From: Pocillopora verrucosa
Taxonomy: Eukaryota > Cnidaria > Anthozoa > Scleractinia > Pocilloporidae
Length of the DNA stretch: 64,000 bases
Assembly: GCF_036669915.1 (NCBI RefSeq)
Contig: NC_089322.1
Location: forward strand, 2,834,551 to 2,898,550
Direction: 5' to 3'
In this document: positions 44,501 to 64,000 of the stretch, piece after piece
Layout of the letters: each line of letters begins with the position of its first letter
How positions within the stretch are numbered: the first letter of the stretch is position 1
Position numbers and translations under genes: made by a program
Notes under the pieces: model-generated
Told to the model about the DNA's origin: nothing
Databases searched by the model: none
Seen by the model: only the letters and a program-made list of their open reading frames with translations

Positions 44501-47500
44501 TAGTCCACCACATTTTCTTTCTTCAACTGCTTTCATTTCATCTCATCTCATCTCGTCAGGTCGATTGGCCCCTCAATATAGTCATTACGGAAAAGTCTGT
44601 CGTGAAATACAACAAGGTGAGAAATCATGTTTGAATTTATTTAAAAGAAATAAATTCTCTTATTATATGGCAAGGCAGTCCAGATGCAAATCCGACTGAT
44701 CTGACAGAACAAACCCTTTCCACGGAAACGATCATAATCCGTGTATTTTTGGAAGCGAAAGCCGGCAAATTCAAAATGAAGAAGTTTGGTCCGAGTGTCA
44801 TATGATAAACTACTTGCTAAACTCGCTTGCTTACTTAACTCGGGTAGCAAGAATTTATATAGCTGTTTTAACGGTCGGAAACGCCGTTGAAAAAAGATTG
44901 CTTCCGCGGTGCAGCGCTCCACACAGGAGTATAAATGAGTACGGGCAATAGAACTGTGTTCTAATAGAGCTCGAGTGCCACAGACTCACTTTGCGTTTGA
45001 TAACTGAGCAGTTTAGTTCTCAGAAAAGAGCCTTTTCAGTACCTTAGAAAATGTACAGAGAATATTAGAGAGAATATGCATGCTGATGTTTAAGAGGAAA
45101 GTGTTAACTGAACCAGAAAAAGAAGCTTCCTTCTGAGACACTTCCTGACCAGTAACAGGAATAATTTAAGACTAAAAGAACATGGAGTTGTTTTGAACTG
45201 AGATGTGGGCTGTTAGAGTGTCAAACGAAACCTTGAACTAGAAGGAAATGTGAATAGAGAGCCATAGGAATAATGTTTTGTGTAATAGTATAGTTTGATC
45301 GTCCGGGTGAGTGTAGTCCCGAGAAGGACTGTTGTCGGTAGTGGTGACTAACTTTTCGACAACCTGAGCGAAAGTCATCATCAGAGTCAAGTGAAAGGTT
45401 GTTGTCAGTCGAATGTACTTAGTCTGGTTGGTATAAACTGATTGGTCAGTTTTGCCGTGATGTTATTGACTGTGAGACTCAAGTGGCATAGGTCAGTCGT
45501 GATTGGTCGGTTTGGATCCGTTAGTGAAGTTAGGTCGTTCTGTTCGGTTCGTTTGTGATGTTAATGTCGTGAATGAGTTATTTGTATGGTGCCGGTAGTG
45601 GTTGACACCTGCAGAGGGGAGTCTGTTCCAAGTTAGTAGTTAGGAATAATGTTTTTTTTCCTTCAGGTATTCTCTTTTATGTTGCGGTTAAAACGTCTTT
45701 CGTGGGTTCTGCGTGATATTTGGTTTCATTTGAAGCACGTTGGTAAGATTAAAAAATACAACTTTTCGTTTTTAAGGGGTAGACAACAAGCATCAGCTTT
45801 TGTTTTTCAAAGAGACCCTCGGGCAAATGAAACACTTGTGAAGCAATTTTTCAAAATCAAACTGCTAGTTTTTTGGGGGAGTTTCCACTAAAACCAAGCC
45901 CGAGCAGGCCCTCATTATTAGTAGTTCAAGTCGCGCGCTTCTCCGCCAGCGGGAAGATTTGAGGTGTGAGAGGTTTGCGGGAGTCTGGCACTAATAAACG
46001 GTGCTAGACCCCTCGCCGGCTCGTGTCTCGTAAGGCCTCAAACTTAACCGCAGGTGATATATCTCTAACTCTTACAAATGATTAGAATGTATCTTCTCCA
46101 TACCATGGAAATTCTATACCAAGCAAACAGGTTATGAGAAAAACCCCCCCTTAAAACTTAATAAATGTTACTTTGATGTAACAACAAATTCTTTGCACTA
46201 ATTTAAAACAAATGTAAATTATATGTAAGGGAAAATTTGTTTTCAGATTATGATACTTTAAAGGGTTAGTGGGCATTGTTAAATTTTCTTGCTGACGACG
46301 AATGTTCTTGTGTTACAGCCTACTCACGCAATGTAGCCGGTTCGCCCCAACTTCGTCAGCTGCAGCTCTTCAGGTAATTTATAAGAACATCTCTTAGCCT
46401 TCTGTTGCATATTTCTATGACGAAGTTTACCACTGAAAACGTTGTCGAAAACAACAGATCTTTTTTTCGTGCGCTCTTCAGAGTGAATGTATTTTATACC
46501 GTTTTGTAGTGTTCGTGATGGAAGCGGAATATATATTTCGTTTGAGTGGTGATGTCCTCTTGTCTCTCTTGTTTGGCCCGTTGCTGCGCGCACAATCTAG
46601 CTGTGCGTGTCACAAAAGTCGCTCTGCTATCTATGATGGTCCTTTGCAGGCTCGCTCACTGCTGTTAAGTTTACTTGCACACTATAACAGGACTGTCTAG
46701 GAACCTCGTGAAAGGGTAATAAAGTGAAGTCTGCTCACTAGTCAAGTTACCCATCCTGCCCTACCTTACCTTGGTTCAAATAGCATGAAGCGACAAGAAG
46801 TACCGCTATTTCTCATAGACGGAATTGGTCTATCGTTAATTACATTCTCTCTTCCTCTCTTTCTTGCCCGCCTTTTACTTTCCGGCGGGCAAGGAAACGC
46901 CCGCGCCGAAGCGATTAGCTTGCTCACAAGCCAATGACTTTCTCCATGTTGGTTTTAGGCATCCAGAGGTCGGCTGATTTGGTAAATTGAAGTGTCTCGC
47001 ATTTTTTTTACGATGCTGTGATCACGTCTTTGTTGTTTCCTTTTTTCAGGCACGAAATGCAACACTTTGTGCATAATCTTGAAGGATACCTGTCAAATCA
47101 AATTCTAAACGTTACCTGGTCAGAGTTTCAGGAAGGACTTCTAAATGTAGGTGGCCTGGGGACGATTTAGCTGCATTGCACTTAATAAAATAAGCTGAAT
47201 TATATGGGCATTGTGATTGGTAAAACGTTCGCCTTTTCACGGCCATTCATTATATTTTTTCAGGAAAGAGATTGCATAGTTTAGAATGTGTACCAAACGT
47301 TAGTTTGGTAAACGTTTGAAAGAGCAAAAAGCGGTCTTCTTTTGCCAAAAGGAAAATTCAGCTTTGTCGGTGCACACATGCCTAACCAACCATACAATTA
47401 GAAGGAATAAGTCTAAAATTAGCACCACTAATCGACGTTACCACCAGCGCCTTTGTTGGGAAGCCTGGCATATCAACTCCGCCCACGCTCCTTCAAATCG

Positions 47501-48752
47501 TGACGATGGCGACTTACTACCTGACCCTATTTACACCTCGTCAGAAAAAAAGAACAGCTAATTAGTGAGCATATAAAAGGACCTCTTGTTGCAACGATTA
47601 GATCACCCCTGATGAGGGCACCAGACAAAAGTGTCGAAACGTTGGGTCTATGAATTGTAACTTCTCGGTTACATTAATTAAATCGTGAAATCAGAGTAGC
47701 ATTAGGTATGTCTGATTTTCCGCCTGGTTGCTTTGTGGACTTCAATATAACTAATTCTTGATTTTCTTTATCCAGGTAAGAAGCTTGGACGACTTGCACA
47801 ACCAACACACTGACTACCTCCGAAAAGCCATTTTCCGTTCCCTGCTCAGTCGAAAGGCAGCGCCTGTGATGACCATCATTAATGACCTGGGCACGCTTAT
47901 ACTCAAACTGCGCACGCAGCTTTTGGCGTCCCCATGGCAACAAGACCCTGGTACAGGGCACGTGACTCATCCTGCTTATGACATCATGTGTAATACTCAT
48001 AAAGTATTCAAAGAATACTCTACCTTTCTCTTCACAGGTGAGATGTTTCGGAAAATGATTTTTTTTGTTAGTGTTTCTTCGTATACAGTATTTTGGAACT
48101 GGAGAATGTGGTGGGTGTAACAGGGGTCGGTTGAATATCTTTAATTGCGGAGCTAGAAAAACAATTTTTTTTTCCGCGCCCTAGTCATATACGTTTCTCC
48201 GCGCTTCAGGCAATTGCCTTGTTTTTCAGCTCAATTCTCATTGGCTCGTTGTTATAGTTTCCATGTCTCTGATTGGACGTTGTGATGGTTTCTGTGTTAG
48301 TTTCATAACACGTAAGAGAAAAGCACTCTGATGATTTTTTTTTTCTTTTGGCCATCTGCGAATCAGCGGTGGGTTCTTACTGCTGCACAAAAAGGGTGCA
48401 ATCGGCGTGCTGTGCTCTCTGAATAAAGGTGTTCTCCTTATTTTAAGCAGAACAGGAAAAATAAATTTTCAAACTGATAGAGCAATCCTTTACCTGTTGA
48501 ATCTTCAAGAATTCCAAGCGATTTTACGCACCAATAAGAGATACTACGGGCGGAAAGTTTTACCGGTTATCGCCTTAAAGGAGAACACCATTATTCAGAA
48601 AAACCGCTTGATTTAAATCAACGCTAATATTTTTCTAATTTTTTTCTAATTTTTTTTCAGTGGTCAGTAAACTTGTTCGCAGAGGTTATCAATCGCACTT
48701 GGCCGATTTTCTACTAAGAATCAACTTTAACAACTTCTACAATGTGGAATGA
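23785..48752 (+). CDS. TUBGCP6: Gamma-tubulin complex component 6
   Basis: GCP6 is a subunit of the gamma-tubulin ring complex that nucleates microtubules at centrosomes. Thirty-two exons join in phase without any stop: 23785-24130, 25342-25505, 26208-26308, 27613-27691, 27867-27923, 28502-28623, 28825-28858, 29744-29892, 31224-31428, 31878-32106, 32936-32999, 33767-33842, 34686-34795, 35763-35854, 36362-36501, 36829-36978, 37567-37648, 37928-38016, 38510-38625, 39019-40535, 41148-41243, 41636-41695, 42625-42718, 43178-43319, 43517-43676, 44413-44450, 44560-44616, 45667-45742, 46319-46373, 47050-47146, 47776-48037, 48661-48752. The product is 1716 residues, near the size of vertebrate GCP6. 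GRIP1 is about residues 385-700 (GVRLLTYLYQLC, FIQTWVFKG). A charged coiled coil spans about 655-830. A repeat-rich insert spans 988-1300. GRIP2 is 1360-1716, ending NFNNFYNVE. The start ATG is the first in frame. A poly-A signal lies at 49303-49308. Confidence 0.93.
24131..25341 (+). other. TUBGCP6 intron 1
   Basis: No exon or gene is supported. The frames at 24779-25119 have no domain or splice support. It ends with a poly-T tract and a CAAACAG acceptor. Confidence 0.6.
25543..25725. repeat. Palindromic dispersed short repeat, copy
   Basis: Begins with a run like ttttaaccccctaagagtgac and ends near ggagatgtatagattaaagtgtg. It carries ttctccttacaatgtcacccctaaat and ggaaatgatcacc, both shared with the other copies listed in this window. 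Confidence 0.7.
26515..26702. repeat. Palindromic dispersed short repeat, copy
   Basis: Starts ttaaactcttagaagtgataaacatgcaacttctccctataatatcc and ends gggagttaaagggttaac. Same family and same order of blocks as the other copies, but the middle is diverged. Confidence 0.65.
27323..27442 (-). mobile_element. tRNA-derived SINE-like fragment
   Basis: On the minus strand it reads tatggctaagggttta as an A-box-like part, then gtcctgggttcaagt as a B box with the usual spacing. Flanks do not fold into a clean tRNA acceptor stem, so it is a repeat and not a tRNA gene. Confidence 0.5.
28108..28305. repeat. Palindromic dispersed short repeat, copy
   Basis: Contains ttcttcacaatattaccccaaaatc, aaattctccttgtcag and tatggagaatatacatactgatgttagggtgtaaggggtt. 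It lies in TUBGCP6 intron 5. Confidence 0.7.
29893..31223. repeat. TUBGCP6 intron 8, stacked short repeats
   Basis: At least three or four copies of the palindromic repeat lie here (about 29975-30182, 30183-30352, 30765-30850 and 30873-31070), in both orientations. Blocks such as catattctccatactgttct and ggtcactctcagggatta mark them. No exon is supported in between. Confidence 0.65.
32107..32935. other. TUBGCP6 intron 10
   Basis: No exon is supported. The first half (32150-32560) holds internally repeated phrases such as gaccgct.aata and gtgaccactta.tagaggtg, which look like a degenerate dispersed repeat. Confidence 0.5.
33149..33260. repeat. Large inverted repeat (hairpin)
   Basis: The left arm begins aaaagctgagcttttcgtttat and continues cacgatgtagtcacg. 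The right arm is its near-perfect complement, separated by a short spacer of about 15 bases (33200-33215). Arms are about 48 bases with a few mismatches. It lies in TUBGCP6 intron 11 and could be a MITE or foldback element. Confidence 0.8.
33960..34150. repeat. Foldback repeat with GACGTTTCGAGCGTTAGCCC-type core
   Basis: The arms agggtaaaaaagctgacgttt and aaacgtcagcttttttaccct flank a core with gaagggctaacgctcg. Flanks include gtggctaatttacattttcaac and accgacgcagcaccacagtttc. A second copy lies at 41350-41575. Confidence 0.8.
34195..34305 (-). mobile_element. tRNA-derived SINE-like element
   Basis: On the minus strand it has an A-box-like tggctcagtggtcgagcat and, 25-30 bases on, a degenerate B box ggtctgaggttaaattcct. 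A cgtgggacaaag phrase beside it recurs at 34468-34480. It lies in a TUBGCP6 intron. The B box has lost the usual TTCGA core, so it is not a working tRNA. Confidence 0.55.
34796..35762. other. TUBGCP6 intron 13
   Basis: No exon is supported. The frame at 34959-35381 is GC-richer and contains the doubled phrase ggggactgttgtct, but it lacks splice support or a recognisable domain. The 35220-35470 part looks like a dispersed repeat. Confidence 0.45.
35878..36330. repeat. TTCCCTCG satellite in TUBGCP6 intron 14
   Basis: About 450 bases of a C/T-rich 8-base repeat, mostly gttccctc with variants gttccttc and cttccctc. Because 8 is not a multiple of 3, all frames stay open and long repetitive frames appear on both strands. 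These are not genes. It lies 24 bases downstream of exon 35763-35854 and 32 bases upstream of the next exon. Confidence 0.95.
36535..36731. repeat. Palindromic dispersed short repeat, copy
   Basis: Contains gcatattctccaaactgtcct, gtgatcattgcctttattctcgtgacc and gtaaggagaatttaaatgc, ending ggtccaatgggtta. Orientation is opposite to the 25543 and 28108 copies. Confidence 0.7.
37720..37860. repeat. Dispersed repeat with AGTGCCAGACC motif
   Basis: Contains attagtgccagacc, cgactcgtctc and cttcccgcgggtggagaaatgcgc. A related stretch lies in the opposite orientation at 45930-46040 (gcgcgcttctccgccagcgggaag, tctggcactaata). A more diverged piece is at 38305-38420. Confidence 0.6.
39570..40530 (+). 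repeat. HPSD and ILYP protein repeats inside TUBGCP6
   Basis: Within the largest exon the frame encodes at least six HPSDxS units (SHPSDSS, GHPSDST, GHPSDSS, GHPSDSQ, QHPSDAS and a second SHPSDSS) interleaved with short hydrophobic ends such as DILYP, NVLYP, GLLYP and NILYY. The later units swap HPSD for RGTPPSS and RGAPPQS. From memory, vertebrate GCP6 has tandem repeats with an HxSDAS core at the same place, so this is probably the counterpart of that region. Its role is not settled; it is a phosphorylation target in vertebrates. Confidence 0.75.
41350..41575. repeat. Foldback repeat, second copy
   Basis: Contains ggccaccgtaagag and its partner ctttacggtggccaattt, with the core gacgtttcgagcgttagccc between. 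The right flank (accgacgcagcaccacagtttc, then ttagaaacttaccc) is almost identical to the flank at 34105-34150. It lies in TUBGCP6 intron 21. Confidence 0.8.
44617..45666. other. TUBGCP6 intron 27
   Basis: No exon is supported. A remnant of the palindromic repeat is seen at 45005-45110. The stretch 45290-45640 contains aacttttcgacaacctgagcgaaagtcatc and looks like a dispersed repeat. Confidence 0.5.
47147..47775. other. TUBGCP6 intron 30
   Basis: No exon is supported. A repeat-like stretch at 47575-47690 carries cctgatgagggcaccagac and gtgtcgaaacgttgggtc, a phrase typical of dispersed animal repeats. The frame at 47316-47561 has no domain. Confidence 0.5.
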
Positions 48753-50078
48753 ATTCGTTACCACTTGACCTCGACGTCACAAACGAATATAATTTTATGA
48801 CTTGTGTTATTTACTGTGTAGTTCTTTGAGAGACGTCAAAACCACATAAAGCAGGACTGTATTTGCAGGGCTATTATCTCAACTTCGCAAAGATATAGTA
48901 GACAGACGACTCTCGGATTACTAACAACTAGCGACTTTGAAAGAGAAAAATACATTTTTTAGGTAAAGATATGAAGCGAGAGATGATCATGCGCACCTTT
49001 GATTTTTGTCTTAAGTTTTGTCATCTAACGCATTTTTTCGCCTCACCCCTCCCCCCAACCTCTCTACTCACCGAACCGAACCGACAGGAGTTCATTTCAG
49101 TCTTTCCACCTGTTTGAAACTAGGTGTTTCTAAAAGTCGTCTCGATGGATTAGATAGACATGATCTACACAGCAGTGGGATCTCTTTTAAGCTTCGTTTT
49201 TTTTCTGAATTGTCCTTAAAGTTACGTCAAATTAAGGTCTTGGATAATCGTCTTGAAAGGCGTTCGCTCGAGTAAACTTCGACTGCCAAAAAAATTCGGG
49301 AAAATAAAGAGATCCGATCGGGCGGATTGCACCGCAAAAAAAGCATTTTTTTAAATGAGTTAGATTAATTCAAAATGAGTTAGATTAACTCAAAATTTGA
49401 GTTAACTCAGGAATTAACTCAATATATTGAGTTAAGTTACTCAAATATTTCTACTAAAATTTGTCAAGTAATATAACTCACAATATGTGAGTTTATTTAC
49501 TAGGTATTGAGTAAATTAACTAAAAGTTGAGTCTGTCATAAGGAATACAGGGATGAGGGATGATTTTGAGATGGGCTTTACCAGCAAAGGATGCTTTCTG
49601 CTGGGATATTTTTGCTATATTTGCTACACATTATGTAACAGTATAAAGTAACACGTGCACTATGACAAGACATAGTACACAAGCAATTGACACAAATTCG
49701 AACAATATTAAACAACCTTTACAAATCGATCCATCCCTAAAATGGCCAAAGTACATGAATAAAACACCCATAAATCATTGAAATACCCAATAACTCTTTG
49801 ATAATTCAGAGAATCTAACTCAAATGTTGAGTTAAATTACTCAATCGCATTATGATATCCAAGTTGGTTTCTGAGTAATTCTACTCAGAAAAAATGGAGC
49901 ATGAATAGCACCACAACATAGTTGAAACAAAAGTAATTATTTTTTTTAATAATTTTTCTTTATATTTTTGCAGCCATTTTAAGAAACTTTACTTTCTATT
50001 CTGCAATATACTATTTATCATGATTTTTTCTGTATTATTTACATGCATCAATATAGCAAAATGTAACCAAAAATATCA
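48753..50078. other. Convergent 3' region, TUBGCP6 and transposase-like gene
   Basis: No exon is supported. It holds the TUBGCP6 poly-A signal (49303-49308), a repeat cluster rich in ttgagttaa motifs (49359-49890) and an AT-rich 3' flank of the minus-strand gene. Confidence 0.55.
49359..49890. mobile_element. TTGAGTTAA-rich palindromic element (MITE-like)
   Basis: The left side (49359-49530) packs many ttgagtta and taactcaa motifs in both orientations. The right side (49815-49890) repeats them (ctaactcaaatgttgagttaa, ctcaatcg, gagtaattctactcag). The centre (49545-49800) is unrelated. This fits a non-autonomous element with palindromic ends. Target duplication is not resolved. Confidence 0.45.
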
Positions 50079-53000
50079 TTACTGCATAAGATCCAATCTG
50101 TATTTCAATGTCACGAAGACTTGGTTGGCATAGCAACCAAATCCCTTAACGAGACCAAGGGGGTAATAATCTAGAAGCTCAGATTGCTTAATATATCTTA
50201 TTTCGTTCAGTTGCTGAACTTTAAAAGCATTTAAATGACAGACAAATTCAGTAACATTTATTTTAAGGTACTGAAACCAAACTATGTGTCTCTCAACAAC
50301 CAAAACCTTTTGGATCTTTCCCAAAATTGGAAAGCCATGGTGGTAGTCAATTACAATAACATCGCCCTTTACGTATTTGGTTCCATAAACTTTAACCCAG
50401 GATGTGCGTGTCAGTGAACTGTCGCCTTTAGTTTGGGGGTCTGCCTCTTGCAGCTCATCTTCTACTCCTGCTTCTTGAACAGTTGTTACCCTTCCAACAG
50501 CTAAAAAGTTATATAAAATATATATATATATTAAAGGAAACTCTCATGATTTAGCCAATGACATTGAACATGGGGTTAAATTAATTTAATGCTTAGGTCA
50601 TTAATTACTGGGGGAGGGCTGGTAAGTTTAGGGGGCTTTGATTTGGGAAGGGCCAAAAAATTTTGGACCAGCATTTAGGGAGAGGGACAAGGCTTTGATT
50701 TGGGGAGGACAAGATTTCTTGGGATGAAGGTTTAGAAATTTTACTGGCCCTCCCCCCCAGTAATTAATGATGGCTCCCTTACCAGGTCCAATTTCCAAAG
50801 ACACTCTCAAATAGTTGCCTTGTGAACTTTGCATTCGATAAGTCTGAAGGGCTTGATGCCTCATAGCCAAGGAATAGGTGATATTTTTGAAATTGTTGAT
50901 GTTGTCTACCAGCTTTTTAAAGTAGTTATGTTTGGCCTCGAACCTCATGGCCCAGTTTCTTACTAGGGGACCATTTCTGTAAATGGAAGATTACTAGATA
51001 TTATTAAAAAACTCATTAATAATTCATAAGCCTTTGGGCCAACTGGATACACCATACATATTACATGCATGGACCTTTATACTCGATAATGTCCCCCTTT
51101 AAGTCCATCTTTTAGATGAACCTTTATATAAAAAAAATTACCTTCATTAGTATTCTTTATATAAAGAACACTAAGACAGATGACTTTATCTGAGAGGAAG
51201 TATATGTCCATGTTTAGATGAAGACTTAGAGCCTCATCAAGGTCTCATCACACCCTAAAATTCCAGATTGCCATGTATAGAATATTGAGCATGTGGGAGT
51301 TTCTTTTAGAGCTACTCGCACATGCCTGTGACGTCAAATATCTATTGAAGTATGAAAGTCCATGTATGGTGGCTCCAGTGGAACCAAAATCTTATAATTA
51401 TGAGGTCTAAAAACACTCGGCTGCACCTCATGCTTCTAAACCTGATAAGACATTATTGCTCATTCATTAAACATCACATAAAACTATAAGTAATACTGCA
51501 TTATATACCCATGTATAAGCTGCACTGCAAGTTTCAGAAAACTTAAATAATCAGCATGATGAAGTCTGAGTGGGCTAATAATACATATATTGAAAGGGTA
51601 TGTAAAGTTATGAAAGGTGGATAAAGTGGTAATACCCTTCCCCTAACCCCCAGTAGTACAAAATGTACAATGCTTACAATTTCAATATAAAAAGACATAC
51701 TTGATAATTTGATTTGGGTAATGCACCATGTAATGCTGTTTTGGGATTGGAAGCCGGTCATTGAGGTTGACATAGTCCTCTAGGTACTCCTCTATGAGAA
51801 CTCCAAGATATGCAGCCAGCTGTGGTGTTGCTTTAGGAGCAAAAACAATTTCTTCAATTTTCAGTAGTCGCAAAAAGTTTTCCCAGTGCTCATCATTTTG
51901 TGGAATCAAGTCTCCTATAAGTATAGGAAACATTCTTGCCAGGCACCACATCCGAGCTGCTGGTGAAAGAAAGAAAAAGAATATGAAATTATCATGTACT
52001 TTTAGTATACAACAAAGCCTTTTATATATATTTTTTGTATATTTCTTTTTCTTTTTAAAATATAACATAATATATAATAGTAATATGTAACTCAACCATT
52101 GCAAAACATCATTCTCCTAACCTGACTGTGAAATCCTCATTGAATTGTTTGCCAATGACTGCGGCTTTATAGGACTTGGTTTATTGCTAGCATCAGATTG
52201 AGGATACCACAATCTTTCTAATCTGTCATTCACAATTTCAAGTGTGAAATAATTTTCCTCTTGAATGTACTTCTGTAACAGAATCTTGACTTCTAGGGGC
52301 AGCACTCCCTCAAGTTGGTCATGCATGACATCAAGAACAAGTCCATCAGTAATGTGGAAGTAACGGGACTGGTTGAGAACACTTCTTGTTTTTACCCCAT
52401 AAGTTGCTTCTAGATTTGCATCATTTTCTACAAGCCGGCAATGTCTGTCATGGATTGCTCTTGTTCTAATTTGAAAATCTGCTTCTGTAAACTAATATCA
52501 ATGTGACATTCACAATATGAGTTGTATAATAGTATATTCATCTCAAGTCCATGAACTTTGAAGTGTAGACTCATATTAACACTATTGACACAGGGTCTGA
52601 TCAAAAGTCTAAACTTATTTGTAACAAAATTTAGAATGCCGGTAAATAATCTTTTACACTTGACACATTGAATAATGACCAAAAATGCATGCACACTACT
52701 ACTACTACCTTTGTGTTAGTGTCTTCTCTAGTTGCCATACAAATTCTACAAATCCTTAGACCAGAAAAGCTCTCCTGAAAACCACCAAGAGAATGTGCCC
52801 CAAGATTGTCACTTGAATAAGGTCCAATGGAACCACTGAATGTTCTTTCTTGTTCATCTATCCAAAATGTTACACCTCTATCCTAGGAAGAAAACAAATA
52901 CATATTTTTTAATTAAATTATAAATTAATATTAATGACAATGTGCACTTAATTATTTTTATATGGTTGAACTTACATTTAGGTGACAGTTAAGTGTATGC

Positions 53001-55627
53001 TACAATATACTTACTGCCTCTAGTTGATGCAGGTCTTGCATGAATGGCTGCAGTATCCTATTCATTCCATACTTTTTTATGAGCGGTACTCGGCACAAAG
53101 CAATTAGCTGAATTGAGTTGATAACAGAACGGTATTCTGGACTAAGATTTCCCAGATTGAAGTAAAAGGCTCCTGATGTTCATAAAAAAATCAATTTCAA
53201 TGGCAATAGTCATAACATGTTGTGCCAAACCAAATGCATACCTCAAACAATGTTTTCCTTTGATATTTTTCAATTCTGCTTTAATTCTGCTGACTGTTTT
53301 TACCACCTATTTATGTTTAAGGTATTTGGCTCAACATACTAGGTATGACGTATGAATCAAGGCTGAACCTTCTTTAGTTTGGGTCAACACAAATGTGCTA
53401 TTGTGCAGCACAACAGAAGCACGTCGTATGAACCAGACCTTACATTTGCACTTATTTTACACTGCACATTTGAGGGAACTTACTCTCATTGCATGTACGC
53501 ATTCAATATTTTGATATTGAACAGGATTGAAATTTAGGATGGTGGATGTTGCATGTCAAACCTCATAAACATTCATAAGTGAATAGGATATCCCCAAAAG
53601 ATCAGTTTTTAGAGATTTCTCAAAATTTCCCTGCCAGATATTGTTTAAACATGACAAACATGCAATTAATATCTTGTGGATAGTTTGGTTGTAGTTTGTT
53701 TTTTCATCATCTGCAAACACACCATCAACAAGCACACACACACACACACACAAAAACAGGAGATTGTCAGTCAATAAATAATAATGTTCATGATAATTAT
53801 TAATGCTAACAGCAACCTAACAAAACACGTAATAGTTTACATGCCTGTAAATACATGATTGAAAAGCATACCTATTTTATGTTTTTTTGTCTTTGATCCA
53901 AGCGGGTTTGTTACTTGAAAATCATCATAGTAACAATGAAGAAGTAGTGCATTACCAGGTTGTCCAAAAAGAGCATGCATTTTGTACTGTTCACTATCAC
54001 AATAGTCTCTTAGAATTCCATCATTTGAGGAATGACCATTCATAACCTACAAAAGTACCCAAATTATTGAAATGTGCCACAAGTAATTTGTTATTAGAGG
54101 GACTGTCATGTAAAATAATGGTATTGATTCAATATTGTCAACTTCAAAATGATATCTAAATTGTCACAAAAACTAAGAGTTTTCCAAATCACCACACCCA
54201 AGTTCCTCCATAAAAACATGTAACCCATACACTGAAGTGTTTCAATATAACTATTAGTGCAGTTTTCGTATGACTGTGAAACGTTCACGGCATGAACAAT
54301 GTCATGGGAAGGAGTCAGCCAATTAAAAATCTAGAAAACATCACGGTCACTGCAAGACACGCACTCCTCGTCCAATCAAATGCAAGAAACATGGCACGAA
54401 ACACTGCACGGACACTGTCACTACGCGGACACGGCACTGCTTAGCCAATCACATCGCGCAAAAAGAAAATCCAGCCAATTAAAATCCTACGTTACGACAC
54501 GACACGTTCACGGCACTGAACTTTTCACAGTCATACGAAAGCTGCTCTATACAGGGACTGCACAGCATCCTAACAAGTGTGTGTGTGTGTGGGGGGGGGG
54601 GAAGGGGGGGCGCTAACATCAGAAAATGCAAACCTAACCCTACCCATCTCTGCAGTTCCTGTTATATTCCCTGTTCTACATACATCAAATAGGATGCTTA
54701 CCTCACATAAAACATCTGCCTGATTGAGCAAAGATTGTAGGGTTTTCAGTATCGAGATGTAATGAAATGTTTCCTTGACCAGGCAGAGTTTTTGCTTGCC
54801 TTGCAGATAGCGATATTCAGCATATTGATTGAGGATGACTTCCTGTGGCTCCTATATATATTAAAACTCATATCAGCATAATAATCAATATATTTATATT
54901 ATTTTGGTAATGCATGTGTTTATAAGAAGGCTAATTAAGATGACTTTAAAGCAAGTTAACACAAGTGATAAAATACATTAATTTGTCCCATATCTTCTAA
55001 TCACATCTATTAAAGCCTGGACATAAGCTAAGGACTTACCACAAAGTTAAAATTCTCAACAAAGTACTTCATCTGTTGGTATTCATTCTGCAAACGTTGT
55101 TTTGCTTGGGAGTAGATACTTGGCTCATCAAGTACTCCAGATAGGCCCTCAACATCAGCAATTTCTATTCCACTGCTTTGAAGGCATGCCACCACTTTGT
55201 TTTTCATTTCCACTAAGCTACTGTCCACTAGGTCTCCTGTATTGTCAAGAATAGCATTGATTGTCTGTTGGCTTAGTTGATTTTCTTCTTTGGTTTTTAA
55301 AATAAACAGTGCCAAGAATCTTGTCACATCGTCGACGTAGTTTGTGTCTTCATTTGAATCGTTGTCTTCTCCATCTTCTTCATCAGAGTTTTCATCTTCT
55401 ACGTCTTCATCGCCTTGCTCACTTACGTTCGCAAAATTTAACAGTGCATTCTTCTTCTCTTCTCTCTGGATATGGGATTTGAACGAATTGAATTTTCGAA
55501 ATGACTGGCCGCATTGTCTGCATGTGATGCTAAAGTTTGGTTCATGACTGTGAATAAATTTGATATGATGTAATAACTTTTTGAAGCTTCTACCAAGAAA
55601 ACTAGTACAGTATGGACAACTATGCAT
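50079..55627 (-). CDS. Intact C2H2 zinc finger plus transposase-like protein
   Basis: Nine minus-strand exons join in phase: 55040-55627, 54702-54851, 53872-54046, 53015-53172, 52709-52882, 52122-52491, 51701-51959, 50783-50976, 50079-50500. They give 829 residues with no stop. The start is the first in-frame ATG (55627). Residues 1-60 hold two C2H2-type fingers (CPYC..HHIKFIH, CRQC..FKSHI). An acidic stretch follows (about 75-100). The body has NPLGSKTKKHK, GAFYFNLGNLSPEYRS, DVMHDQLEGVLP, MWCLARMFP, KQHYMVHYP and FEAKHNYFKK. I recognise this motif set from uncharacterised proteins in fish and cnidarians that look transposase-derived. The DxMHD motif recalls tnp2-like transposases but the class is not certain. 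No terminal repeats were found around it, which suggests a domesticated or host-like gene. Confidence 0.75.
53733..53754. repeat. CA microsatellite
   Basis: A run of about ten CA units in an intron of the transposase-like gene. A GT-plus-G tract with a similar look is at 54577-54608. Confidence 0.9.
54257..54545. mobile_element. MITE with about 25-base terminal inverted repeats
   Basis: The left end (gtgcagttttcgtatgactg, then tgaaacgttcacggca) is mirrored at the right end (tgccgtgaacg, then agttc, then cacagtcatacgaaagctgc). The element is about 290 bases with no frame, in the intron between exons 2 and 3 of the transposase-like gene. Interior phrases such as cacggcactg and cgacacg also repeat. 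Confidence 0.7.
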
Positions 55628-56092
55628 TTGGATATACGGAAAACCTTCGATAAACAACGACGCGCTGATGAAGGAGAACACAGAAAGACCCTAATTCAAT
55701 GGCTCTTAAACGAATGTCTGGGTGCTGACCAGTAGAAACGCAGGCTCTGGGAACGAGATTGGAATGGTAGTAGGACAAAGTTTGAGACAAATCAACTCTT
55801 TTCTTATAAAAATATTTATAATATATTTCATTACAACGTAGATATTATTTTAGCCGTCTTTATTTAGGATATATTGTATGAATGAATATTTTCCAATTTG
55901 AGTTTCCTGTTGTTTTGGCGCTAAAATTTAACCTCGATGTGATGAACATGACCATGTGATAGTGGCTACCAATCAAAAAAAAGGGCGCGAATGTACGAGA
56001 TAAAACTCTTGTTCTCCATGAATGCTTTCTCTCACGTAGTCCAACTCTTTGCATTGCAATAGTCAAGTGAGCTCTTTAGCGTTTTCAAAAAG
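55628..56092. promoter_or_regulatory. Divergent promoter between transposase-like and SAM-kinase genes
   Basis: The transposase-like gene starts leftward at 55627 and the SAM-kinase gene starts rightward at 56093. Only 465 bases separate the two ATGs. No core promoter element is claimed. The region is AT-rich in its middle and may serve both genes. Confidence 0.45.
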
Positions 56093-58094
56093 ATGGCAAG
56101 TTTCCCGAAGTCTGTGGACGAGGTTAAGCAGTGGATGATACAAAATGGGTTTTCGTCCCACGCTTCTACCTTTGAAGGTAAGCTATAACTAGAGAATTTG
56201 TACAATATTAGGTTAACCTGAATTTCAAGTTTATTCGTACAAAGCTCATTTGTTGTCCTTCAGTACATGCTTAGATCTGAATTTTAGGTAGAGATATAAT
56301 ACAACGATAAATCATGTATTATTTTAGTTTATTTTTGTGAGGATTTCTTTATTTTCCAAGGTTATTTTCCTTGAACTTCGCGCTATCTGTACCATGTACG
56401 ACCATGTACACACTCTGGTAGGATCTAGAGAGCATTACCCGTTGTATTGCAAATCGGTGCCATTTTGAATAAAAAAAAACTAATTCATAAGGAATCCAGA
56501 TGAACAGTAAAACCAAAAATCAAACTCGGGTTTTGGTGATTAAATATTACGAGGAGATTTGGTTGATCTCTTTCCAATGGAAAGATTCTTGGTTTTGTTC
56601 CAATGCAAAGATTCTTGGTTTTGGCGGGAACTTCGGTACCATTCATGCTATGCCGTGCTAAGCACACATAGATAGGTCTTGCCTAATACCTAAGTACAAA
56701 ACTATCAAGCTTTACCCCACATTCTTTCATATTGATTCCAATTGCTCTCTTTTCTTTCATAAGAGAACGAAATCGATGGCGAAGCAATGCAATGCTTAAC
56801 GGAGAATGCGTTAGTGCAACTGATACCTGTGGTCGGCCCTAGAATGAAGTTTATCAAGCAACTTGAATCTTTGAAAAAAACCTCCAGGCCCGAGAGTATT
56901 GATGTAGTTGAAGAGGGTACCCCAATTGCCAATGAAGAAATGGAAGTACAAGACAGAATTCCAGCTGATACAGAAGTAAAAGCAAGGTTTGAATCTTAAG
57001 TTATGGTATAATATTGTGCTACATTATAATACTGGATCATTATTTCTATGACTTGCTTCAACAACCTTGATAACTTTGTTTTTATAACTATTTTTGCAAA
57101 ACAATAGTTTAAAAAAATAAAAGGTGCGGTCGGTTTATAGCCTTAGATCTTACAATCAGTGCTGAGCCTCTGCTTTTGTGTAAGGTAGTTTAACTGCCTT
57201 TTACCATTACTTTACTCAATTGAGTATACATTCGCTTGTAAGTAGAGACTGTTTTGTAAGATACATAAGGACAGTATAAATTTGTTTTGTGCCAACATGG
57301 TTGCTGTGTAAGGTGTTTTGTAAGCACCTTTTACCAGTATCTCTTTTGAGTGCTATATTTAATAGCGCTCATCAAAGAGGACAGAAATGAATTTATACTT
57401 ATTAAAATTTCAGAAAAAGGAAAAGAACTCATTCCTTGACGGCTAAGAGAAGACAAAGGCTTGCTCGCAACAAAAGGAAAAGGGAAGAAAGACAAAAGTC
57501 AAAAACGGGACTTGAATTGCTGATGAGTGATCTAAAACAGAAAAATCAGAATCTGCATGAAGCAATAGGAGTAGAAAAGAAAATGAAAGAAAAGTACTTC
57601 GAGATGTGGAGAGCTTCAGAAAGGAAAAAGAGAAACTAAAAACAACTAAATGTGTATTCCAGGGATGTGCAAGGAATAATATGAAAAATAATACTTCTAG
57701 GGAGCTTTTGCAAATCCAACCAACAATGCTAGAAGATCTTGGACCAGATGATAACCTAAGTAGTGGCAGATTTGGAACTGTGTGCTTAAAAAAATTTAGA
57801 TCCACACCAGTTGCAGTCAAGTATTTAGAGTCATCTAGTGTTAAGGAAGTTCAAAGGGAAGCTTCATTTTTGGACAAATGTTGTCACATAAATCTCCCCA
57901 TTATATTTGGGGTAAACACAATGCAGAAGCCTTATTTCATAGTCGCAGAATTTTATGGTAATGGATCGTTTAAGGCCTTGACACTAAGAGAACTTTTACA
58001 TAAGGATGAAGAACATATTAAATCTTATGTAAATGGTCCAGAGTATTGGCTTCATTTAAGTTTCCAGATTACTGATAGTATTTCACTATGAACT

Positions 58095-58500
58095 GTAGTT
58101 TTATGAAAATTCCATGAATTTCATGTGAAAAACCCATGAAGATCATTTCATGGCCCATGAATACTGCAAAATGAAATTTCATGGGGTTATTTTTAGCCCT
58201 GAATTTTCCATGAATTAGGGGAATTTTTTTCATGACCCATGAATTTCTTCAAAGTCTATTTTTATGACCCATTGATTTGCCATGAAAGTCATCAGAATTA
58301 ATTTCATGACCCATGAATTTCTTTATATGCCTACTTTCATGACCCATGAATTTCTTCAAAGTCTACTTTCATGACCCATTAGTTTCCCCAAAAAGTCATC
58401 AGAATGAATTTCATGCCCATGAATTGCAATCAAACAGCATTTCATGGGCTAACAATTTATTTGTTTTGGGAGAACAAAATTAATGGGCCATGAATATTCC
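58095..58500. repeat. Left subterminal repeats of the CACTA element
   Basis: At least ten occurrences of tttcatgac.ccatgaa, ttcatggcccatgaa or close variants at intervals of about 30-60 bases. The right counterpart is 60650-61170. Spacing and orientation are mixed. Confidence 0.85.
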
Positions 58501-59006
58501 CTGAAATCCCTGAAGTGGCCTTTGTTGACGTAAAATGTACAGGAAATCACAAAACAATGACTAAAAACAATGGATCTTCAATTTGCTCCTTTGTTGAGAC
58601 AAATAGGGCTGGAGGCAATGACCCAGATGTTTGATCCTCACTTTGATTTTTTGGGGCCTTTTTGCCTTCGCCATGCCTGGACGACTTTGTTGAATTTTTT
58701 CTGCCTCACTGCTGGCTTTGATTGTTAGCCATGACTCTGGAAACCTGTTCAAGGCCTTCTCTTACATTCTTACGGCTGAGGAATCTTCTAGGGCTTTTCT
58801 AGTAAGGCACCTGCAGAGTACAGATGCTTAAGTTGCACAGCAACAGTACGCATTGCATCTACACGAAATGTAGAACAAAACAATGAAAAATCAATCACTT
58901 TGTCACCTCAATTTGGAACTTTGAATAGTGTGCAAATGTAACCTGAAAAAAATGCTATTTTTCCCTCGTTCATAGAGTCACCGGTTAACAGAGTCAGGCC
59001 ATCTTC

Positions 59007-60137
59007 TCAGTCGGGATGAAACGTTACCTTCATGTATTCATTGAGATCGCCTTCTACAACATCGTTGTTGATTTCGTGATCGCTTTCACAGGAATCACTG
59101 TCGATGTCAGCTCTGACTTTCTTGGACTCTGATGTCCTGTCGATTGTTACTTGCTTCGAATTCCAAATACCGAACAGCTTTTTGTGCTGCTTTATTTTGT
59201 AAGAATACAGACGCAGCAACGAGACCTCTTCGGAGTCATTTCGTAACGTCGAACACGATAACCTGTGAGGTCACTATGTGACCGCTGACCTATGATGGCT
59301 GCGATGACCTAAGGTCACCACGTGAAAGTACACGTGATTTACGAAGAAGTGGCGGTTTTTTTCGTACCTCGAACGGAATGGTTCCATTCCAATTGCATTT
59401 CTCGTAGTGTTTGTGTAGCGGTCTCTTTTTTTCCAGATCAACGCAATGGACCGTCTGAAAAGTTTTTTCAAAGAGGTTTCCTCAAGATGAAGTTATCGAC
59501 ATGTATTACAACGTGAAGGGGTAAGTTCAAGCTTGGTCATCTTATTACGCGTAAACATCGGAGCGCGCGCGCTAACTATTGATTTAACTTGAAAATTTTT
59601 ATTCTGTGATCATCTGGCGAAACATCACAAGAGTTTGTATGGAAATACCTACGACCGTTCTTAGGAATAAAAAATACAGTCAAATTCTGAATACGAAATA
59701 CCTCACCTCACTTCCATAGTGCGTCGCTTGGTATCTGACGGCTTCATGTTGAAAAGAACCTGTTTTGGCGAGTTATCCATTTCTAGGTTTACTACGTACA
59801 TAAGAAAGGCTCTTAGATAACTGATGATGTGCTCCCTTTATTTTGCAAACAGTAAAGAGTGTTGGTCTACAAAACTGATGAAAGGAAATGCACACTTGCT
59901 AAAGCAGCCTATCTTGGTCCAAACGATGATGAAGATGCAAATAGTAATGATAACCGAAAGAAGGATGGCACATTCAGGTGGCCAAAACAGAGAGACACTG
60001 ACATAGTCAGCCATAGATATATCTTCACACATGCAAGAGTGCAGAAAGTTGGTAATTGTTTTGTTGTTAGTTACCTTGAGAGTATTGATCACAAGTGTAA
60101 AACATATCAAGAAATTTACATGAATGTTGTTACATAA
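59007..60137. other. Interior of CACTA element, unassigned frames
   Basis: Two frames stand out but neither is recognised. Minus strand 59007-59219 encodes a lysine-rich then acidic peptide (DIDSDSCESDHE). Plus strand 59859-60137 encodes a 92-codon frame with DDEDANSNDN and ending at a stop, without an ATG near its start. They could be decayed transposon coding sequence or captured host pieces. Confidence 0.3.
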
Positions 60138-60649
60138 ATAGACATTGTAATAACTGTCCATAACATTTTACACATGATATTAGACGAAGGAAATGATATT
60201 TGAAGTTTAGACAAAAATACATCAAGCCAGTGAGTACATTTTCAATAATTTCGTCCAAATATTTTTGACATCAAATTTATTATATACCTTCAGAAATATA
60301 GGAGCAGAATCTGTCTCCACAAGGAAAATCAGTGATATCAAAATAGAGCTAAAAATCATTAACATCTTAATTTTATGCAGAAAATTTCATACCAACTTTT
60401 TTTATTTAAGAAAGTGTAAACTGAATTATCACAATTTTGGAATCCTAAAGTAATATTTATGTACAGCTGGTGAAACAAAATAAACTATCAGAGAATCCAA
60501 ACTTCTGGTCATGTCTTTCATGTGTGTGTGCTTGTACAACAGGACCAAGAAGTTTCACAGATAGGTTAGTTCTTCAGTGTATAATTTAAGTGATAGTGTA
60601 TGTATTACAGTTATGGTATACTGCAAGCTATACACTGTAGTACAGTCTT

Positions 60650-61170
60650 TGGTACAAGAAAAGTGAAGAATTTTTAATTCCAAATTCATAGGGTTTTCAA
60701 AGAATTTTCATGGTGCTTGCATATTCCTAACAACCCCATGAAAACTAACTGGCAATTAACTTTCATGTGCCATGAAAAAACCATGTAGAGGCCATGAAAA
60801 TTCAAGGAAAATTTTCATGGTCAATGAATTTTTAACGTATTCACAGGATATTCATGGGTCATGATTTGCTGCAACCCATTAAAAACTAGTGAACTTTGAC
60901 ACCATGAAATTTTGGGCTTGAAATTCATGGGTTTCTCAGTACCTTTGAAAAGGCCATGAAATGCCATTTTCATGGGTATTTCATGGCTTCTAGGTCACTT
61001 TACTCAATATTTCATGGGTCGTGAATATGGAAATTTTCACAGGTTTTTCATGGGATTTTTCAGGTCTTTTTCATGGCACTGAGACCATGAAAATGTCATT
61101 GATTTAACCATGAATATCCTGTGAAAAATCTGTGAATTTACAATGAATTATTTCACAAGATTTTCATGGG
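60650..61170. repeat. Right subterminal repeats of the CACTA element
   Basis: Many copies of ttcatggg, catgaaat and related motifs, mirroring the left side. The last is next to the AGTTCATAGTG end. Confidence 0.85.
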
Positions 61171-61777
61171 TTTTGAGTTCATAGTGTTTGCTATTTACAT
61201 ACTATGGGAGTGCTCCACAATGATATAAAACTGACAACATTGTTGTTTCTGTATCACCTGTAAATGTTATCACACCTATCTTAATAGATTTTAGTAAGGC
61301 CACACTGATAAGTGAAGGGAAGATTAAAGTTCTTACTGCTGCGGAGAAGGATCGCTACCGCAAAGAGCACATGCAAATTGCCCCTGAACTCATTGAGGGA
61401 ACTCATCCCCAATCTGTTAAGAGTGACATATATTCTCTGGGAATTGTTTTTGCCAGTATATATAAATTTACTAAATACAAACCCATAAAAGAATTAGCAA
61501 AAAAAAGTTTAATGCCCTTTCAAACCAGATGTACATCATCAGAGATTTTAGCAATTCTAATGGATCTTATGAAAGTCTGATTTACTTTTTTAGATGACTT
61601 CAATCTGATTTGTTTGAATTTGTTTCCATCTTACTTGGAGTAATGTTTTATGCCATTATACATATCAGCCATTGATAAGGTGTTCAGGTGTCATTGAAAT
61701 GATATAATTGTTTTGCTTCAAGATGTCATGTTTGTTAAATAAAAAGTCTATTTTGATCCATTCCTTTCTGTCTTTAG

Positions 61778-64000
61778 GGACATCCATTATCTACAGCTAT
61801 ATTTTACTATTCATACAGAAAGAGGCTGGAATTTGATAACAAAGTTAGCAGTCCCTGCCCTGATGACAATATAGTGCTAAATGCAAAAATGCTTTGGCCA
61901 AGAGTGTTAACACTTCCAACCAGTTTCCGACTGGATGTTACTAGAACACTGGCAAGCAAGGAGAAGCAGAACATCAATAAGAAGTTTAGAAGAGAGTTCA
62001 TAGGCTCAATATACGATCATTTTGCCCGCTACACTTTGTAAGTATACTTGTTTGATATATGTTTACCACTTTTTGATTGATGAAAAGCCATCAGGAATAC
62101 ATTTTATTGTGGTGTAGGGAAATGCTAAAATTGGCTTATTGTATTTTCATCAATGAGATCTTATGTTGAAGAAGAAGGTACTGGTATTAGGTTACTAATT
62201 ATTGTACATTTCATTTTATTTTTTGGTTTGTGAATTGTAGGTATCCCACCAAACATCAACTCACATCTATTTGTGAACTAATAGTCCAGAAATATCCCTT
62301 CCTGAAAGATACCTCAATTGGTACTGGATATGTAAGTACCGAATAAGTACTCTAAGGTTTTGAAACAAATGATATGTTGATATCTGATGCTGTTATATGA
62401 AAACATGAAAAAGTTTGCTACATATCCCTCAAAAAAGTTTTCATATCGAGGCCTTAAAGGTTGATCATGTTCACTAGTAAAAAATGCAAACCATATGTGA
62501 CCTTGCATTTTAGCTTATTACATGTTTTTTCATGACCTATCCAGAGTTTTCCAAATTGCTGACTGATTCAATGATCTAATAAAAAGGTAATTTGAACATT
62601 GACTCCCACAGTCAGAGAAAAGTCAGAGAATTTGGCATTTTTTTCAAGGTCGGGGAATTTTGATTTTGGTCAGGGAAATTTGCAATTCATCAAAATAGGG
62701 AATTTTTCTTTCATCTTTGCAACATCTTCTTGGTGATTATGTTTCCAAATGAAATTTCCCAAATATTCCTGGTGTCCTTCATAACAATGACTAACTAGAA
62801 GTGTGCCATTGGGTGATGGAAAAATTGGTTTTGGTTTTGGTCTTGGTCAGGGAATTTAACTTTTTCATAAGAGTGGGAACCCTGTTGAATTATGGCATGA
62901 AAATAATACTACAGCTACTAGAATGCTGGCACATAGTTTTTTTTATTTTGATTTATTACTCCTTGAGTAGCTTTTGCGAATACTAGGAGATCAAAAAAGG
63001 AGATACAAAAGAGATTCAAAATCTGAAAAAGAAAAAATATATGTGCAGAGGATTCTAGTACTGAAATGTCATATAAATGCAAATCATCTATTACATCAGA
63101 GATAATTGATTTCAATACTATTTCCAGGATTCCTGGTACGCTAGTCTATACGAAAAGTTCCGTAATGAGAGAAAGTCTATTAAAGATGACCCGGAAGTAA
63201 TCCTCAGGAAAAGAAAGCCCAAAGAGAGTTCCAAAGAGTGTGTGAAAGCTAAGCTTCGCAGAGGAGCCATAAACTGGGAGCCACCCTTTCCAGAGGGTGA
63301 GGATGAGGTGTCTCTACAACGACATAAAGATTTTATGAAGAGTGAATTTGAAAAAAGGTCTCCAGATTGGGCAAAGATAAGCAAACGAATGGCACTGACT
63401 TTCCCCAGCAGACGGAGACTAATGAATGACAGTATGAGCATCAAGGAAATAAAAGAACACTACCCTACTCTATTTAAGTTTGAACAGGTATGTTAAGCTA
63501 TATATTGTTGTCCTTGTGAACTATGAGTATGAGCAATCTAATTGTGTTTTCTCTGTGTCTTTCAACAAGAAAGTTGTGTAGAAGAAGGATGAGTTTAATA
63601 AAACTACCCCCACATTAGGGTGATTGGCAGTCTGGTTGTTCTGTCAGGTCAGCACAATTTGCTGCCTTGAGTAACTGGGCAATTCTGGGTGTGTTGGGTG
63701 ATATGCAGACATCCTATGCTTGCAAGATGTGAATGTCCTCTCTTACTTCATATGTTAACAGAAATATAGGAATTATTATTGATGCTATTCAAACCTTTGT
63801 TCCTTAGATACTGGCTGAATTTGAAAGAATTTTGGGTCTAAATTCAAGTGTGGTGGATTCATTCAGGTCTAATTTTCAGCAAGTCACTGACCCGATTGTA
63901 AAACTAGGAAAGACAAAAAATAAGAGTAAATCAAAAGAAGAAATCCAAACGTTCCTGCACCTCCTGGAGGATGATGATAATGACATGAACGAAGATGAAC
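61778..64000 (+). CDS. SAMD3-like protein, C-terminal exons (partial)
   Basis: Four exons with matching phases: 61778-62037, 62241-62331, 63128-63487 and 63808 to beyond the window end. Motifs are TLPTSFRLD, IYDHFARYTL, YPTKHQL, CELIVQKYPFLKD, DSWYASLYEKFRNERK, RRGAINWEPPFPEGEDE and FEQILAEFERILGL. I recognise this from the C-terminal part of sterile alpha motif domain-containing protein 3-like proteins of fish and cnidarians. No start codon or SAM exon is in place for it. The SAM exons at 56093-56986 end in phase 2, whereas 61778 must begin in phase 0, so they cannot join directly. It may be a 5'-truncated copy, or a gene whose first exons lie in the gap and were not recognised. Biochemical role unknown. 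Confidence 0.75.

Follow-up and report, generated by a model that had tools for sequence, protein, structure and literature searches.

Evidence for a non-autonomous CACTA transposon inserted into the kinase-like cargo of a second, larger mobile element in Pocillopora verrucosa

A kinase-like exon on contig NC_089322.1 of the Pocillopora verrucosa assembly GCF_036669915.1 is split by an insert of 3103 bp, which raises the questions of what entered the exon, when it arrived, and whether an intact kinase was lost as a result. We analyzed the 64-kb stretch of DNA that holds this exon (the window, G000:C11:2834551-2898550) against the whole assembly of 353.4 Mb in 52 contigs. Our analysis indicates that, very probably, a non-autonomous CACTA (EnSpm superfamily) transposon has inserted into an exon of a kinase-like gene, this gene being in turn the cargo of a second, larger transposon. 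The insertion and its target comprise the following features:

58084..61186, plus strand: non-autonomous CACTA (EnSpm) element of 3103 bp, with perfect 11-bp inverted ends, a 3-bp duplication and 26 genomic terminal-region pairs
58084..58094, plus strand: left terminal inverted repeat CACTATGAACT, from sequence comparison of the ends
61176..61186, plus strand: right terminal inverted repeat AGTTCATAGTG, from sequence comparison of the ends
58081..58083, no strand: target site duplication TTT, left copy, from the flanks and the empty sister sites
61187..61189, no strand: target site duplication TTT, right copy, with a single TTT at 5/5 empty sister copies
58084..58508, no strand: left subterminal repeat region (CCATGAA/TTCATGG), by motif count
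60691..61186, no strand: right subterminal repeat region, by motif count
57561..58083, plus strand: kinase-like exon, N-terminal half, interrupted by the CACTA element (PF07714, about 1e-08)
61190..61580, plus strand: kinase-like exon, C-terminal half (PF00069, 8.8e-06, below its cut-off, from 61224)
~61224-61231, plus strand: frame break after HNDIK, also present in the empty sister copies

The inverted ends CACTATGAACT and AGTTCATAGTG match at 11 of 11 bases, each occurs only once within the window, and TTT adjoins both, confirming a first-pass annotation that had described perfect inverted repeats flanked by this triplet. The window contains 505 eleven-base inverted pairs whose starts lie between 300 bp and 10 kb from each other. 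Seven of these had an outer 3-base direct repeat, and only the 58084/61186 pair started with CACT. The corresponding means over 100 Markov shuffles were 298 pairs, 5.85 with a 3-base repeat, and 0.02 also starting with CACT. The motif CCATGAA/TTCATGG is concentrated near the ends of the element, with 13 occurrences in the first 500 bp and 17 in approximately the last 500 bp; the middle has none, and the remaining 61 kb of the window has 11. Shuffling the whole element 200 times gave a mean of 0.9 and a maximum of 4 for this subterminal clustering. The element shows what a non-autonomous copy can show of CACTA membership, and it is near certain that it works like a CACTA element. Its CACTA/TAGTG ends, its subterminal repeats and the single TTT at empty sites bear out the annotated CACTA type with a 3-bp duplication.

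The genome itself supplied the uninterrupted form of the target. The N-terminal half of the kinase (129 amino acids) was found at 100% identity at five other places, two on C1 and one each on C3, C4, and C11, with the next best match at 47%. At these sister sites (C4:14276581-14291072; C1 at ~2.10-2.11 Mb and ~20.96 Mb; C3 at ~10.31 Mb; C11 at ~21.47 Mb), the alignment blocks to the left and right of the insert overlap by exactly 3 bases in all five cases, so that TTT is present once and no insert is present. We fetched three of the empty sites, and each was identical to the joined window flanks over 301 of 301 bases. Continuity from SICYLH to HNDIK was thus observed in all five sisters by alignment overlap and base for base in the three that were fetched.

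Joining the window flanks with one TTT restores DSICYLHTMGVLHNDIK in frame, whereas a 2-bp duplication gives no in-frame join. The annotation had proposed that excision with one TTT rejoins the kinase frame, and this is correct as far as HNDIK, but the remaining kinase sequence lies in another frame. The insertion had also been placed exactly inside the catalytic loop; we instead locate it approximately ten codons before the HND motif, upstream of that loop. The open frame of 198 amino acids is the same in all five sister copies, and the bases at the break are identical in the three that were sequenced. Because the empty copies share the break, it predates the insertion; a recurrent sequencing error is the less likely alternative. 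Since the kinase frame was already broken in the empty copies, the age of the insert does not tell when an intact kinase frame was lost. The CACTA insertion did not disable an intact kinase frame, and the dated disruption of a kinase claimed in the annotation is too strong, given a break after HNDIK that recurs in 5/5 sisters by open-frame length and in 3/3 by letters. Past the break, the frame remains open for 118 amino acids and retains its match to the kinase profile. This speaks against long decay and for an alternative in which the break is a sequencing artifact that recurs systematically in an A run, the kinase was intact, and the insert disrupted a working gene. We consider that alternative unlikely, since such an error would have to recur with the same bases in every fetched sister and the same open frame in all five.

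What, then, is the kinase-like gene part of? The sequence shared with the sister sites extends far beyond the kinase, and we describe it as a putative carrier element with the following features in the window:

49330..63999, no strand: putative carrier mobile element (window part), with left end CACCGCAAAAAAAG at 49330, right end beyond the window, and six genome copies
50082..50543, minus strand: open, exon-like carrier frame sharing the strand of the transposase-like exons; no Pfam match
51685..51966, minus strand: next transposase-like exon of the carrier; no Pfam match
52120..52491, minus strand: transposase-like exon of the carrier with the motif VMHDQLEG; no Pfam match
55031..55690, minus strand: exon-like frame within the carrier; zinc-finger matches weak and under the cut-off
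56763..56996, plus strand: SAM-like half domain upstream of the kinase (PF00536, E 0.0036, below cut-off)
61778-62038, 62242-62331, 63110-63493 and 63808-63999, plus strand: exon-like frames downstream of the kinase; no Pfam match

The motif VMHDQLEG in the exon at 52120..52491 is presumably typical of animal EnSpm-like transposases, and we likewise take the exon at 51685..51966 to be transposase-like and the frames at 61778..63999 to be SAMD3-like. Neither transposase-like exon had a Pfam match at E 1, and a tblastn comparison of the carrier transposase with L050-L062, which cover 11 of 28 PF02992 places in the genome, gave no match. On the left, four sister copies match the carrier DNA from ~49330, and the copy at C11:21.47 Mb matches only from 51148, at 98%. 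On the right, all five reach window base 63999. Each of the four left junctions fetched starts at CACCGC after unrelated flanks. The complete C4 copy ends in GCGGTG and is 14,492 bp long, and GCGGTG was the right end in four of the five stretches inspected, with the minus-strand C1 copy not showing it at the predicted place. GAGTTA/TAACTC repeats lie near both carrier ends. In all three copies with both ends seen, CAC...GTG ends (CACCGC/GCGGTG) are accompanied by matching 2-bp flanks (TA, TG, and TA). The transposase-like exon at 52120-52491 is present in all six carrier copies, whole and at 100% in five and in two pieces (99% and 94%) at C11:21.47 Mb. Its 11 other matches are at 25-46%, with the nearest to a kinase match approximately 48 kb away.

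Shared ends, matching 2-bp flanks and a co-travelling transposase-like exon together lead us to read the carrier as a transposon with SAM-kinase-like cargo. The annotation had assigned the target to a SAM-kinase gene family; the gene is best read as cargo of a second dispersed mobile element rather than as an established ordinary host gene. Near-identity of most copies would also be expected if the six carriers were segmental duplications or assembly copies and the kinase an ordinary young multigene family. We regard this explanation as very unlikely: the copies lie on four large contigs, their left junctions fall at the same CACCGC base, the two-ended copies have inverted ends with matching flanks, and the transposase-like exon accompanies the kinase in all six copies. 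The superfamily of the carrier is likely EnSpm/CMC-like, from the presumed resemblance of its transposase, and the kinase could be either useful to the element or captured from the host. We lean, by a little more than even odds, toward the carrier being a still active eukaryotic (probably animal) cut-and-paste element of ~14.5 kb, in which a SAM-kinase-like gene travels beside the element's own transposase-like gene. It would have spread to six places, mostly so recently that copies are <0.1% apart, and would already be parasitized by an unrelated CACTA family.

The insert likewise belongs to a dispersed family. In whole-genome DNA searches for its relatives, scoring covered 40 of 677 first-look candidates, which makes the counts lower bounds. 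Searches with the terminal regions gave 28 left and 33 right matches, from which 26 pairs were formed, three of them with left matches that cover the query only in part. Twenty-one of the 26 pairs span 3.10-3.33 kb. Two left and seven right regions were unpaired, and only some of these nine were inspected. The annotation's expectation of further genomic copies is therefore confirmed by paired terminal regions with shared body similarity. One part of its suggested route to them, the 11-base end, was uninformative in bare form: genome-wide matches (73 and 83 per strand) were no higher than those of a reversed-pattern control (88 and 89). We thus dropped this count as evidence, and the family is visible only through paired ends and body similarity. 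Among 21 aligned copies, the exact 11-base ends are present in 19 on the left and 20 on the right.

Both ends were measured in 22 copies; the 3-bp flanks are identical in 20 of these, and in none does the match extend to 4 bp, compared with a mean of 1.36 and a maximum of 7 matching flanks when pairing was shuffled in 10,000 trials. The duplicated triplets are diverse (TTT, ATG, GGG, TCA, AAG, GGA, and others), and this wide variation indicates that the family has no fixed target sequence. Pairwise divergence among 12 copies is 0.09-2.67%, and within this set the window copy alone has a 187-bp deletion at 58508/58509. On C5, coordinates place one copy inside another. Copies L031 and L032 show no difference over 3310 bp, yet their sites have unrelated flanks and the duplications ATA and TTT, respectively, indicating that the CACTA family has been mobile recently.

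When did the window copy arrive? Compared with its sisters, the window carrier shows 0.013-0.087% substitution in nine of ten blocks, a divergence derived from BLAST bit scores and not from full-length aligned letters. The tenth block (C11:21475985-21482972, the left block of the 21.47 Mb copy) is 98% identical, with at most 1.4% substitution; the right 2.8 kb of this copy is at 0.04%, and its left end is unmatched. Because the insert is absent from all five sisters and carrier divergence is tiny, the CACTA insertion post-dates, or falls within, a very recent burst of the carrier. The element itself appears older than its insertion. Over the 21 aligned copies, the window copy differs from its nearest relative by 0.87% and has 16 private substitutions (~0.5%). 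This private divergence exceeds that of the close carriers (at most ~0.09% in four of five sisters), so that most of the 16 substitutions probably arose before insertion here. Such an excess is expected for cut-and-paste movement, in which the donor either vacates its original site or is absent from the assembly. The annotation's view of a young insertion, drawn from perfect ends and a perfect duplication, is therefore upheld as to recency; the date comes from the carrier (<0.1% in four of five sisters) and not from divergence of the element, which would overestimate the age of the insertion several-fold.

Whether the element could move by itself depends on its coding content, in which we recognized three exon-like pieces:

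59028..59210, minus strand: exon-like open frame (..QHKKLFGIWNSKQ..EYMK), common to relatives on C3, C5 and C7
59446..59518, plus strand: initial exon-like segment of a gene remnant (MDRLKSFFK..) whose frame is not clean
59856..60055, plus strand: second exon-like open frame (RVLVYKTDERK..VQKVG); no Pfam match and no sign of coding constraint among copies

By eye, these divergent frames (59210-59028 minus and 59446-60055 plus) resemble a two-gene layout, which would suit an intact autonomous CACTA element encoding its own mobility proteins. The second plus exon also lacks internal stops in 28 of 29 matched stretches. A stop is present in 25 of 30 genome matches to the minus frame, but in the majority sequence this frame opens just inside the query start, so that the stops fall at its first residues; they say little and do not show decay. 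Against autonomy, the tested frames had no Pfam matches, and a genome-wide search for Transposase_21 (PF02992) listed 28 places, none of them within the window element. The plus exon (66 codons, 21 copies) has accumulated 18 distinct changes, 3 silent, 14 replacement, and 1 stop. With a silent fraction of 23% expected without constraint, these changes give no sign of constraint, and the openness of the frame thus reflects youth. The longest stop-to-stop frame in the 12-copy majority sequence is 109 amino acids, well short of the usual length of a transposase. We therefore give an autonomous element very little credence. A donor gene for the plus-strand frame was not found, as all 29 stretches matched at E 0.001 lie within CACTA-family places, and a promoter scan of the element centre with a bacterial model gave nothing useful. 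A PIF/Harbinger-type element, which would likewise make 3-bp duplications, is hardly credible given CACTA ends, a Transposase_21 remnant in the C5 relative, and duplications of many sequences, Harbinger elements preferring TWA targets.

Longer relatives bear on the origin of the non-autonomous CACTA element. End pairing gave spans of 1.6-3.3 kb with two exceptions, a 6579-bp copy interrupted by another copy and a decayed 6304-bp relative on C5 that holds a Transposase_21 remnant (PF02992, 56.3 bits, 6 internal stops). The remnant (L060:1271-1873; C5:3580670-3581272) sits between left and right CACTA element sequences, on the same strand as the minus exon. When the 30 matches to the minus exon were compared with the 28 PF02992 places, only this C5 pair was close, with no other pair within 90 kb. 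From this arrangement we infer that the minus frame at 59028..59210 may be a leftover 5' exon of a lost transposase gene and that the family would descend by internal deletion from an element with a Transposase_21 gene. Among the loci compared, the C5 remnant is closest to L050 on C11 (81% DNA identity over 959 bp). Another relative, older and of ~15 kb, on C3 (L061+L062, C3:16165210-16180457), has an RVT_1 reverse transcriptase open reading frame nested in its left part, and the end-pairing test found no left end for it. This relative also holds a HIRAN-domain frame.

Several observations weigh against a recent insertion of a family member mobilized in trans. L034 and L035 account for the two of 22 copies without matching 3-bp flanks. 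End pairing found no element that combines the family ends with an intact transposase and could act as the source in trans. The C5 relative lacks the left terminus, and the C3 relative reads through the transposase point without that segment, so that the C5 segment could be a separate insertion. The bit-score basis of the carrier divergence is a further such point, and the sister at C11:21.47 Mb is older or rearranged in its left block.

Taken together, our observations are consistent with a model in which the CACTA family would have arisen by internal deletion of an element with a minus-strand Transposase_21 gene. The carrier would first have spread to several places, and a CACTA element would then have entered one carrier copy. 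A transposase supplied in trans would bind the CACTA ends and subterminal repeats, excise the element, and insert it at a 3-bp staggered cut.

Two publications characterize CACTA elements by CACTA/TAGTG termini, repeats in the subterminal regions, a 3-bp duplication, and a transposase together with a second reading frame (PMC8978399, PMC4158355). The window element resembles them in its CACTA...TAGTG ends, in subterminal repeats over several hundred bases, and in its 3-bp duplication. It differs from them in that its perfect ends are short (11 bp) and in that no transposase was found in it, the sole linked Transposase_21 being the decayed remnant in one distant relative. It is alike to dSpm, a non-autonomous internal-deletion derivative of CACTA/EnSpm, as a putative internal-deletion derivative. 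The carrier shares CAC...GTG inverted ends (CACCGCWAAAAAAG) and subterminal GAGTTA/TAACTC repeats at both ends with large CMC-type EnSpm-like elements, to which we also presume its VMHDQLEG transposase-like gene to be comparable. In contrast to those elements, it makes 2-bp rather than 3-bp duplications (3/3 copies), has no Pfam transposase match, and carries a SAM-kinase-like gene as cargo. Like the Pack-type and giant gene-carrying transposons treated in a review (PMC6431247), the carrier moves a non-mobility gene to several chromosomes, but it also keeps its own transposase-like gene. The word "kinase" is absent from the main text of that review, and titles and abstract openings in the literature searched revealed no publication on this CACTA family.

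The CACTA insertion is ordinary transposon biology of a known kind, and the greater novelty lies in the carrier with its kinase. The locus draws its interest from one young mobile family nested in another, from five empty sites within the same genome, and from kinase-like cargo. With one filled site and five empty copies in a single genome, no second species is needed to put two transposon bursts in order. What looks like a young kinase family can turn out to be carried by a transposon, which is relevant to counts of gene-family expansion in such genomes, and both families are candidates for ongoing movement.

Two further observations concern the rest of the window. Just left of the carrier, ~46870-49200 resembles a cluster of ~15 repeats at C11:2.93-3.51 Mb, with 74-83% identity over 0.6 Mb, scoring having covered 39 of 4614 candidates. 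At 35870-36600, long open frames of simple-repeat type (EGTRERRN/LVPSFPRS) are present on both strands.

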